A DNA stretch of 64,000 nucleotides from NCBI RefSeq assembly GCF_900220985.1, contig NZ_OCPC01000001.1, positions 1,032,836-1,096,835 on the forward strand, written 5' to 3'. The translations under genes were made by a program, and so were the position numbers. The stretch's first letter is position 1. Every line of letters starts with the position of its first letter. Source of the stretch: Parahoeflea halophila. Lineage in GTDB: Bacteria > Pseudomonadota > Alphaproteobacteria > Rhizobiales > Rhizobiaceae. This document shows, piece after piece, positions 25,493 to 28,894 of this stretch. The notes under the pieces are model-generated. The model saw only the letters and a list, made by a program, of their open reading frames with translations. It was not told the origin of the DNA and made no database searches.

Positions 25493-26986
25493 TCAGCTGG
25501 CCTTGGACAGCGTCTCTCCGTCACCGAAATAGCTCATCTGGTCCTCGGCCCATGCCTTGATGCCGTATTTTTCGACGGTCTTGCGCATCATTGCCATGCG
25601 CTCCCGGCGCTCCTGCTCGGGCATGGCCAGCGCCTGTTCGATAGCCATATCCATCGACCGGTGCGAGAACGGGTTGGTGATGACGGCTGATGACAGCTCA
25701 ACCGCGGCCCCGGCGAATTCCGACAGCACCAGTACGCCGTCGCCATCGGTGCGCGCGGCCGCATATTCCTTGCACACGAGGTTCATGCCGTCGGCCAGCG
25801 GCGTGATCCAGCACACATCGGCAAGCTGGTAATAAGCGATCAGGTCCTTGAACGGGATCGCCGTGGAAATCAGCGCCACCGGCTGCCATTCGAAGGATCC
25901 GAACGTGCCGTTGATCCGGCCCGCCAGCTGTTCGATCTCACCTTGGATTTCCTCATAGGCCGCCATGTTGCGGTTGGCGCCGACCGAGACATGCATCAGC
26001 CGCACCTTGCCGTGCAGCTCGGGATTTGCCTGCAGCAGCCGTTCATAGCTTTCGAGCTGCTGAACACCGCCTTTCGTGTAATCGGTGCGACCTACAGAGA
26101 GGATCAGTTTGCAATCCCCGAGTTCGGCGCGGATCGCTTTGGCGTTCTCGCGCGTATCTTCAGTCGCCGCCTGTTCCTGGATGAAGTCCCAGTCGATCCC
26201 CACCGGCGCACTCGAGATCCGGATCGTCCGGCCCTGATATTGCACCGATTCCGGGATCCGCCGGTCCGTCAGCGCCGTGCCTTCCCAGATGAAGTCCGGA
26301 TTGACGTCCTTGCGCACTACATTGCCGACTTCCAGCAAACTCTGCGCCACATGCACGAAGTTCACGGCGTAACGCGGAATGTGGAACCCGACCACATCGC
26401 AGGCAAGCAGGCTGTCGACGATTTCGCGCCGCCAGGGCAGCACGTTGAACATGTCGGCAGCCGGAAACGGCGTGTGATGGAAGAATGAGATCTTCACGTC
26501 GGGACGAAGCTTGCGCAGATAGCCGGGAACCAGCCACAAATTGTAGTCGTGCACCCAGACCACGGCCCCTGGTGCAGCTTCGGCAGCCGCGGCCTCGGCA
26601 AAGGCCCAGTTCACCTCGCGGAATGTCGGCCAGTCGACGGGGTCGTAATTGTAGCGTTCCTTGAACGAGTGCAGAATCGGCCAGAACGCCTCCTTCGAGG
26701 TGATGTGGTAGAAGCTCGAGACCTGATCCGGCGTCAGCGGCAGCCGCGTGACCGAGTATTTGCCGTAGCTGTCCTCGATCTCGATGACCCGTTCGAAGTC
26801 CGGGTTGGCGGCATCATCCGCCAGTTTCCAGGCAACCCAGGCCCCCTTGTCGACACGGCCGAAAAAGCCTTTCAGCGTCGGCACGATCCCGTTCGGGCTC
26901 TTGTTTTCCTTGAAAACGATCTTCCCGTTTTCTTCGACTTCCTCATAGGGTTGACGGTGATAAACGATGACAAGATCGCTGGCCAT
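25493..26986 (-). CDS. ggpS: Glucosylglycerol-phosphate synthase (GT20 family)
   Basis: Predicted to transfer glucose from ADP-glucose to glycerol 3-phosphate, the first committed step to the compatible solute glucosylglycerol. The 497-residue length matches cyanobacterial GgpS. Features that I recognise from GgpS rather than OtsA are SPNGIVPTL at 30-38 (in place of the GGL loop), FYHITSKEAFWPILHSF at 92-108, HDYNLWLVP at 146-154 and FFHHTPFP at 168-175. The ATG at 26986 gives the conserved MASDLVIVYHRQPY start. It lies four bases after the phosphatase gene and downstream of gpsA. An automatic label of trehalose-phosphate synthase would be expected; substrate use is inferred. Confidence 0.85.
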   Translation of the reverse strand: MASDLVIVYHRQPYEEVEENGKIVFKENKSPNGIVPTLKGFFGRVDKGAWVAWKLADDAANPDFERVIEIEDSYGKYSVTRLPLTPDQVSSFYHITSKEAFWPILHSFKERYNYDPVDWPTFREVNWAFAEAAAAEAAPGAVVWVHDYNLWLVPGYLRKLRPDVKISFFHHTPFPAADMFNVLPWRREIVDSLLACDVVGFHIPRYAVNFVHVAQSLLEVGNVVRKDVNPDFIWEGTALTDRRIPESVQYQGRTIRISSAPVGIDWDFIQEQAATEDTRENAKAIRAELGDCKLILSVGRTDYTKGGVQQLESYERLLQANPELHGKVRLMHVSVGANRNMAAYEEIQGEIEQLAGRINGTFGSFEWQPVALISTAIPFKDLIAYYQLADVCWITPLADGMNLVCKEYAAARTDGDGVLVLSEFAGAAVELSSAVITNPFSHRSMDMAIEQALAMPEQERRERMAMMRKTVEKYGIKAWAEDQMSYFGDGETLSKAS

Positions 26987-26990
26987 GTAA

Positions 26991-27770
26991 TCAGTATCCT
27001 TTCGGTAGCTCGTGCATGTCAAAAGCACGAATAGCCTCCAATATGCCCGCCGCGCCATGCGCTTGCGCCATATGAAGGTGCTCCAGATGGAGAACGCGCT
27101 CGACCAGAGAAGGTTCCGAATTTCCCACCGCGACCGCCGGCAGTCCGCATTCGAGCATGGAAAGATCATTGAGCGTGTCGCCTGCACACAGCACGCGATG
27201 CGGCTCGATCGCGAGATGCTCCACCAGCCGGCGCAGCGACGGGCCCTTGCTCACGCCCTCGGGCAGCACGTCGAAATAGCGGTTGTCGGAGATCAGCCAC
27301 TGGTGCCCCATCTCCTCGACAATGCCGCAGGCCGAGCGATCGAAAGCATCGGGGTCGAGATCGTAACTCACCCGGTAACGGAAATCAGTGGGTTGTAGCG
27401 TCAGGCCCGGATGGCCCTCGAGCCGAGCCTTGACCTTGTCGCCCGCATTGGCCCAGCGTGCGGCGATTTCCTCTTCAAGATGGGCGATCGGCGCAACGCC
27501 GGTCTCGGAGGAGACCGTGGCAATGGTGGTGCCGACATCACCGACCGCATAGTCCGGCCAGGGCACGCCACGCTCGCGGCAAAGCTCGCCGATAAATTCG
27601 GGATCGCGTCCGGTCACGAAGATCAGGCCGACTGTGTCGCGATTGTCCTCGATCCAGCCATAAAGCCGCCGCCGGTCTTCCTCGCTGCCACCCAGAAAGG
27701 TGCCGTCGAGATCGGTGGCAAGCACGAACCTCCGCGTGTTGAGTGGATTGTTGATAGGTGTCGAATTCAT
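26991..27770 (-). CDS. HAD-IIB phosphatase, probable glucosylglycerol-phosphate phosphatase
   Basis: A 259-residue HAD hydrolase related to sucrose-phosphate phosphatases. The nucleophile motif DLDGT is at 20-24, the second motif VTGRD near 46-50, and the last motif GDTLNDLSMLE near 208-218. It overlaps gpsA by four bases (ATGA) and is followed after four bases by ggpS, so it would dephosphorylate the product of GgpS. The phosphatase-then-synthase order equals the domain order of fused GgpPS proteins known from some gammaproteobacteria. Assignment rests on family plus context. Confidence 0.8.
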   Translation of the reverse strand: MNSTPINNPLNTRRFVLATDLDGTFLGGSEEDRRRLYGWIEDNRDTVGLIFVTGRDPEFIGELCRERGVPWPDYAVGDVGTTIATVSSETGVAPIAHLEEEIAARWANAGDKVKARLEGHPGLTLQPTDFRYRVSYDLDPDAFDRSACGIVEEMGHQWLISDNRYFDVLPEGVSKGPSLRRLVEHLAIEPHRVLCAGDTLNDLSMLECGLPAVAVGNSEPSLVERVLHLEHLHMAQAHGAAGILEAIRAFDMHELPKGY

Positions 27771-28894
27771 TCGGCTGCCTCCGCTGCCATGGCAATGGGA
27801 TGATCGAGACTGATGGAAAGTCCGCGGCGTTCGCTCTCGATCGGACGGGACCAGAGCTCGGCAAAGGTTTCCCGCACGTCCGCACCCTGGTGCAGGATCC
27901 GGTACACGCTTTCGCAGATCGGCATGCGGATGTTCATCCGCCGCGCAAGATCCATCACCGAAACCGAATTGACCTCGCCCTCGACCACCACGGCCTTGCC
28001 GTCGAAACATTTCTCCCGCGCAATGCCCTTGCCGAGCTGAACCCCCAGCGACATGTTGCGCGATGTCTGTGACGAGCAGGTCAGCGTCAGGTCACCCGCA
28101 CCGGCAAGCCCCGTCACGGTTTCACGGCGGCCGCCAAACACGTCGGCCAGCGTCTTCATCTCGTCCATTCCCCGCGCGATAAGTGCTGCGCGGGTGTTTT
28201 CGGCATAGCCCGCGCCCGTCATCATGCCGCAGGCGATGGCAATGACGTTCTTAACCGCACCGCTGACCTCGACCCCGACGAGATCGTCGGAAATATAGGG
28301 CCGGAAGAACTCCGACCCCATCGACAAGGCCAGCCGCGCCGCCGGGCTCGACGCGGTATCGAGCCGGTCGGCATAGGAAAACTGGAAAGCAATGGTGGCA
28401 GCGGTCAGATGGCCAAGTGCGGTTTCGGTGGCAAAGGTCGGACCGGACAGGGCGCCGATTCGGTGACCGGGCAGCATTTCCGATGCCACCTCGCTCAGCA
28501 AATAGCCGGAACCTGCCTCGATACCCTTGGCACAGAGCGCGATCGGCACGCCCTGAGCCAGATGCGGCCGCATCTGTGTGCAGATCGCGCGCAGGGTCCG
28601 CGACGGCGTGACCAGCAGCACCGCCTCCGCCCCTTCAAGCGCCTTCGCCATGCTGGTGATTGCGGCAATGCCATCCGGCAAAGAAATACCGGGAAGGTAT
28701 TTCGGATTTTCATTGCGGCTGTTGATTGCTTCGACTGTAACCTGATCTCTTCCCCACAGTGCCGTTTCACGGCCGGCGCGTCGCGCCACGGAGGCCAGCG
28801 CGGTCCCCCAGGCCCCGGCACCGATAACGCAGATTTTCGCGTAGGCCCGTGCAGGGGAAGACAGGTCGTCGGCTTGTTCGCCTTGATGAGTCAT
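27767..28894 (-). CDS. gpsA: NAD(P)-dependent glycerol-3-phosphate dehydrogenase
   Basis: Reduces dihydroxyacetone phosphate to glycerol 3-phosphate. The 375-residue product shows the nucleotide site VIGAGAWGTALAS at 23-35, the catalytic-lysine segment SGAVKNVIAIACGM near 213-226 and the GLAGAGDLTLTC motif near 264-275. The ATG at 28894 is used; one at 28915 would add seven residues, and no start closer to the Rossmann motif exists, so the N-terminus is about 20 residues longer than usual. Coupled to the phosphatase and ggpS, it would supply the acceptor for glucosylglycerol; it could also serve lipid synthesis. Confidence 0.93.
   Translation of the reverse strand: MTHQGEQADDLSSPARAYAKICVIGAGAWGTALASVARRAGRETALWGRDQVTVEAINSRNENPKYLPGISLPDGIAAITSMAKALEGAEAVLLVTPSRTLRAICTQMRPHLAQGVPIALCAKGIEAGSGYLLSEVASEMLPGHRIGALSGPTFATETALGHLTAATIAFQFSYADRLDTASSPAARLALSMGSEFFRPYISDDLVGVEVSGAVKNVIAIACGMMTGAGYAENTRAALIARGMDEMKTLADVFGGRRETVTGLAGAGDLTLTCSSQTSRNMSLGVQLGKGIAREKCFDGKAVVVEGEVNSVSVMDLARRMNIRMPICESVYRILHQGADVRETFAELWSRPIESERRGLSISLDHPIAMAAEAAE

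Follow-up and report, generated by a model that had tools for sequence, protein, structure and literature searches.

Trehalose and glucosylglycerol, the latter a known protectant against salt, are made by enzymes of the same glycosyltransferase family (GT20), each acting with a phosphatase, so a locus that pairs a GT20 gene with a phosphatase gene raises the question of which of the two sugars it serves. The question is posed here for the window, a stretch of 64,000 nucleotides from Parahoeflea halophila (contig NZ_OCPC01000001.1, positions 1,032,836 to 1,096,835), in which such a pair is preceded by gpsA, a glycerol-3-phosphate dehydrogenase gene. Judged by its sequence, this three-gene unit is very probably a glucosylglycerol biosynthesis operon, in which the GT20 protein would be glucosylglycerol-phosphate synthase (GgpS) and not trehalose-6-phosphate synthase (OtsA). 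The features of the unit, with the evidence on which each assignment relies, are as follows.

27767-28894, minus strand: gpsA, NAD(P)H-dependent glycerol-3-phosphate dehydrogenase, operon isozyme, 375 amino acids (NCBIfam NF000942, PF01210, PF07479, tree)
26991-27770, minus strand: HAD-IIB phosphatase of S6PP type, predicted glucosylglycerol-phosphate phosphatase, 259 amino acids (PF05116, HAD motif residues)
25493-26986, minus strand: ggpS, predicted GT20 glucosylglycerol-phosphate synthase, 497 amino acids (TIGR02398, GgpS side of a tree branch)
25463-25436, minus strand: terminator-like hairpin downstream of ggpS (pattern scan only)

Is the GT20 protein a GgpS? It scores 674.9 bits with TIGR02398, the NCBI equivalog model for glucosylglycerol-phosphate synthase (cut-off 569), and 421.2 bits with TIGR02400, the OtsA model (cut-off 564.85). 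It thus passes the first and fails the second, and passing the GgpS model is the strong part of the evidence for its identity. A second GT20 gene of the genome sits in a separate otsBA pair. In a tree of 56 GT20 rows, chosen by hand from larger sets (two of the eight OtsA rows are identical) and flagged for long branches and for one row of odd make-up (L105), 40 GgpS-like rows, the window's included, are split by a branch supported at 100/99 from eight OtsA and eight other GT20 rows. The window protein lies on the GgpS side, away from E. coli OtsA and from the genome's own otsBA copy, and joining it with the eight OtsA rows is rejected by the approximately unbiased test (p-AU 0.0005). On the model scores, the branch and this test, the assignment to GgpS rather than OtsA made in the earlier note is supported, and the phylogeny it had proposed as a check, run here, does not place the protein among OtsA; an OtsA identity is rejected on the same three grounds. 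The four sequence motifs on which that note had relied are all present in the translation. A further group of GT20 proteins from the family (L096, L098-L101, L104, L107, L108) stands apart from both GgpS and E. coli-like OtsA; identity of its members to the window protein is 30-32%, and an otsB-like match lies nearby in 8/8 loci.

The residues of the acceptor site were compared in an alignment of 94 GgpS, five fused, seven OtsA and eight other GT20 rows. The GgpS rows are those above 600 bits and longer than 450 amino acids (L113, L119 and L120 being left out), and the window protein is counted among them together with two copies and some nearly identical rows. Arg9, Tyr76, Trp85 and Arg300 of the OtsA structures (R10, Y77, W86 and R301 in gene numbering) are taken here to be the contacts of glucose 6-phosphate. 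The first three are conserved across all aligned rows (R11, Y93 and W102 in the window protein). The fourth is arginine in 7/7 OtsA and 8/8 other GT20 rows and is N338 in the window, an arginine being found one place after this position in 81 of the 94 GgpS rows. In addition, 40 positions carry a residue that is shared by at least 97% of the 99 GgpS and fused rows and is absent from the seven OtsA rows. Such a pattern would fit a different phosphorylated acceptor. At the donor site, the arginine corresponding to E. coli R263 (presumably a donor contact) follows a glycine in 86/94 GgpS rows and a glutamate in 5/5 fused rows, so that GgpS and the fused enzymes may have different donor pockets.

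What reaction could then follow that of the synthase? The HAD protein matches PF05116 with 151.7 bits (cut-off 20.3), and its motif residues D20, D22, T24, K175, D198 and D202 are invariant in 103 separate and five fused rows (separate rows above 200 bits, locus repeats included, L120 left out). Its closest solved relative is the sucrose phosphatase of Synechocystis (75.6 bits). A sucrose phosphatase identity is rejected, since the protein fails all three sucrose-phosphatase models among its matches: TIGR01485 (80.2 bits, cut-off 183.65), TIGR02471 (84.2, cut-off 209.75) and TIGR01482 (66.9, cut-off 107.15). The phylum sample contains 11 further GgpS loci, and in five of them HAD and GT20 are joined in one open frame with HAD first, which agrees with the earlier observation that the gene order mirrors the domain order of fused GgpPS proteins. 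The window HAD and GT20 proteins are 36-43% and 45-48% identical, respectively, to these five fused proteins, in one of which (L115) a TGA lies inside the matched stretch.

Are the three genes a unit? All three frames are open within 25493-28894 and follow one another on the minus strand in the order gpsA, HAD, GT20. The HAD frame starts within the end of gpsA, with positions 27767-27770 common to both (a 4-bp overlap), and a gap of 4 bp separates the last base of the HAD stop codon (26991) from the first base of the GT20 start codon (26986), as the earlier description of a tightly packed unit had it. The single terminator that it placed at the end of the unit is matched in part: a hairpin of 12 pairs, nine of them G-C, followed by TTTCGTT, stands about 29 bp beyond ggpS, but as a terminator it is suggestive only, because the scan statistics are weak (five terminator-like sites against 2.7 +/- 1.7 in shuffles). 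The promoter scan returned one sigma-70-like site (1.1 expected), situated within the HAD gene, and none upstream of gpsA.

The arrangement is shared widely. Genome contigs were scanned for relatives, and the best 80 of the 471 obtained are considered here; HAD lies directly before ggpS in 80/80 and gpsA before HAD in 72/80, and for this reason the arrangement is not a matter of chance. Among the eight loci without gpsA, one (L031) has only 697 bp available ahead of HAD. Two loci of Hoeflea (L014, L016) keep a GNAT gene, HAD and ggpS with no gpsA between, which looks like a loss of gpsA. The top ten relatives are 91-95% identical, and nine of them are labelled Hoeflea, which puts the window in that genus or very close to it.

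Does gpsA belong to the pathway? The window GpsA scores 361.3 bits with NF000942 (cut-off 257) and matches PF01210 and PF07479. The genome holds two gpsA genes, the other, on contig C3, encoding a protein 38% identical. The copies were surveyed in 16 further genomes (G058 and G592 among them are apparently a single genome, since the coordinates of their matches coincide): nine hold the operon gpsA, eight of these nine together with a second gpsA, and the remaining seven have a single gene located elsewhere. Among 40 other genomes of the family, 37 have one gpsA and three a second, weaker match. In a tree of 53 GpsA rows, also hand-chosen from larger sets, the 29 operon proteins, which come from Hoeflea and Rhodobacterales, are separated by a branch supported at 100/100 from 24 GpsA proteins encoded elsewhere. 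The operon proteins are longer (median 375 against 326 amino acids, in 83 operon rows of at least 350 amino acids and 36 others), and at 27 positions they carry residues fixed in at least 95% of the same operon rows but present in no more than 5% of the others. Because of these second copies, the branch and the differences in length and fixed positions, the operon gene is, on sequence criteria, a second isozyme linked to ggpS and forms a clade distinct from the other GpsA of the same genomes; it may be tuned for supply. This co-inherited clade is the new part of the finding: neither the operon nor its GpsA isozyme was found described in the glucosylglycerol and ggpS literature covered, which took in titles, opening parts of abstracts and excerpts of papers.

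The explanation that survives best beside this one concerns the same gene. The operon gpsA could be an ordinary gene of the phospholipid pathway that stands beside a ggpS cassette by happenstance. In its favour, Palleronia aestuarii (L028, G593) has the operon gene as the only PF07479 match in its genome, as though this gene had taken the place of the second one, so that the operon isozyme apparently can serve lipid synthesis; the eight loci without gpsA beside HAD point the same way. The second gpsA of the window's genome, the second copies in eight of the nine other genomes and the common side of the tree branch occupied by the Hoeflea and Rhodobacterales operon copies make this explanation unlikely, and gpsA as a mere chance neighbour is rejected on these grounds.

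With GpsA read as a ggpS-linked isozyme, a three-step pathway can be proposed on knowledge of the families. GpsA would convert dihydroxyacetone phosphate into sn-glycerol 3-phosphate; GgpS would transfer glucose, most likely from ADP-glucose made by GlgC, to glycerol 3-phosphate and form glucosylglycerol phosphate; and the S6PP-type HAD protein would remove the phosphate to give the osmolyte 2-O-alpha-glucosylglycerol, with a presumed role in salt stress. As the operon GpsA would be a second isozyme tied to the pathway, supply of the acceptor could rise together with demand. ADP-glucose is the donor of cyanobacterial GgpS (PMC6753628, PMC10873239; these and the other papers cited by PMC number are represented here by excerpts), and the genome encodes a GlgC that can supply it (497.6 bits, cut-off 424.9), the gene adjoining glgB. 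A reason to pair gpsA with ggpS is suggested by work on an engineered cyanobacterium: of four glycerol-3-phosphate dehydrogenase genes introduced into it, three increased glucosylglycerol, by 26, 32 and 42%, and the strain that received the fourth, from yeast, died under salt (PMC8168540). The best outside support comes from Dinoroseobacter shibae, which has an orthologous operon and whose compatible solutes are given as alpha-glucosylglycerate and alpha-glucosylglycerol (PMC9062515, citing Kleist 2017).

The product might instead be a related glycoside (galactosylglycerol or another hexosylglycerol), or UDP-glucose might take the place of ADP-glucose. The sequences do not disclose which donor is used, and the residue before the R263-aligned arginine, glutamate in the fused proteins and glycine in most GgpS rows, leaves room for such a difference. 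However, the curated model that is passed is one for glucosylglycerol-phosphate synthase, GlgC is present, and D. shibae with its orthologous operon is reported in the excerpt of PMC9062515 to use glucosylglycerol, so this alternative appears quite improbable. Least credible of all, with hardly any weight left to it, is the view that the GT20 protein is an OtsA with an unrelated phosphatase and a housekeeping gpsA adjacent by chance: the closest solved GT20 relatives are named trehalose-phosphate synthases (none of the 23 listed is named GgpS), three of the four presumed acceptor-site residues are held in common and the OtsA model score is not far under the 496.0 bits of the genome's own OtsA, but the GgpS model is passed, the tree places the protein outside OtsA, asparagine stands where 7/7 OtsA have arginine, the 40 GgpS-fixed positions are absent from OtsA rows, the genome carries its own otsBA and trehalose has no evident use for a gpsA partner.

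Several points weigh against a glucosylglycerol operon and have to be set beside this evidence. The genome's own OtsA, with the score just given, likewise lies under the TIGR02400 cut-off, which makes failure of the OtsA model weak evidence when taken alone. The rows of the GT20 tree include no GgpS known as biochemically characterised, and the link to function is made through the curated model and RefSeq names. A model for cyanobacterial GgpP exists, and it is not among the HAD matches at E up to 0.001. D. shibae prefers glucosylglycerate under nitrogen limitation, according to the excerpt of PMC9062515. The marine picocyanobacteria that bear ggpS hold an FAD-dependent glycerol-3-phosphate dehydrogenase instead of gpsA, as stated in the excerpt of PMC9361551, and gpsA is for that reason not a general partner of ggpS. 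Finally, no enzyme of glucosylglycerol breakdown, for which a search was made, and no transporter of the compound was identified.

How does the unit compare with known systems? With the cyanobacterial GgpS/GgpP pair (Synechocystis sll1566 and slr0746; PMC10873239) it shares the synthase family, by the curated model, and the two-step logic; gpsA is also among the genes named in a figure legend on cyanobacterial ggpS loci (PMC6753628). It differs in its S6PP-type phosphatase, which lacks a match to the cyanobacterial GgpP model, and in its gene arrangement, a single unit headed by gpsA. Fused GgpPS proteins are reported in the heterotrophic bacteria Stenotrophomonas, Pseudomonas, Azotobacter and Marinobacter (PMC10873239). 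They have the same order of phosphatase, then GT20, whereas the window has two separate genes with gpsA ahead, and the five fused proteins of the present sample form a branch of their own. The OtsBA trehalose pathway likewise combines a GT20 enzyme with a HAD phosphatase, but its GT20 belongs to another branch and its phosphatase to another family, and the window's genome holds it as a separate copy. Closest is the unit on plasmid pDSHI02 of D. shibae (DSHI_RS19325 to RS19335), with the same three genes in the same order and strand and the RefSeq name ggpS; it differs in being plasmid-borne and in a GgpS about 67-69% identical to that of the window.

The distribution of the unit suggests movement. 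A ggpS above the cut-off is found in 16/18 genomes of the genus, 7/199 of the family and 12/398 of the phylum, the window's genome being counted in each. The GgpS rows of the family do not form one clade: this grouping is rejected for 13 rows (same-family rows, the Hoeflea loci of the tree, L009 and L024; p-AU 2.5e-65) and, as one clade, for nine rows (Hoeflea, L009 and G101; p-AU 3.4e-6). L009 nests in Hoeflea, and in the GgpS tree as well as the GpsA tree G101 groups with Rhodovulum. On a plasmid of Falsirhodobacter algicola, the three genes adjoin a replication initiation gene. Transfer between orders as a unit is the simplest reading. A wider proposal, put forward tentatively and a little short of evenly balanced, is that gpsA-HAD-ggpS may be a mobile three-gene osmolyte module that marine Alphaproteobacteria carry both on chromosomes and on plasmids and that Rhizobiaceae have acquired on more than one occasion. 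The GpsA of this module would be specialised, perhaps freed from feedback by glycerol 3-phosphate, would couple acceptor supply to osmolyte demand and could provide for phospholipid synthesis in genomes that have lost the other copy, as in P. aestuarii. Clustering of open reading frames in the flanks suffered from shadow frames in GC-rich DNA, and nothing here is based on it.

The earlier note had also feared that an automatic otsA label would hide the pathway. This proved unfounded, because RefSeq names the orthologues ggpS in four of the five matched plasmid records (the fifth has no annotation there) and the NCBIfam model itself carries the GgpS name; a genome paper on Rhodobacteraceae lists the enzyme by name (PMC7002103). 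The pathway itself is already known, and the find is well supported but fairly ordinary. It would provide a relative of Hoeflea with a predicted nitrogen-free osmolyte route beside trehalose; for Hoeflea phototrophica, the excerpt of a survey that covered genes for betaine and ectoine gives no route other than the choline-dependent one to betaine (PMC7824335). With the co-inherited GpsA isozyme it can be tested directly whether an osmolyte operon includes its own precursor supply, a matter relevant to glucosylglycerol production, given the cyanobacterial yields raised by an added dehydrogenase (PMC8168540).

Some minor observations complete the picture. The gpsA on contig C3 (L109:2442-10268) stands beside genes for a UbiA-HAD protein, an FAD-binding protein, a fusion of nucleotidyltransferase and GlcNAc-2-epimerase, and a phosphomannomutase-like gene. 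A record titled Enemella evansiae, an actinobacterium (L084, JAFKDC010000001.1, and L128), encodes a GgpS 71% identical to that of the window; its only PF07479 GpsA groups with those of Rhodobacterales genomes, and mislabelling or contamination of the record is the probable explanation. In the search for a breakdown enzyme, two GH13 proteins (L173, L174) encoded by the window's own genome passed one model among the matches listed (25 of 36 families for each), that of beta-galactosidase BglA, an odd name for GH13.

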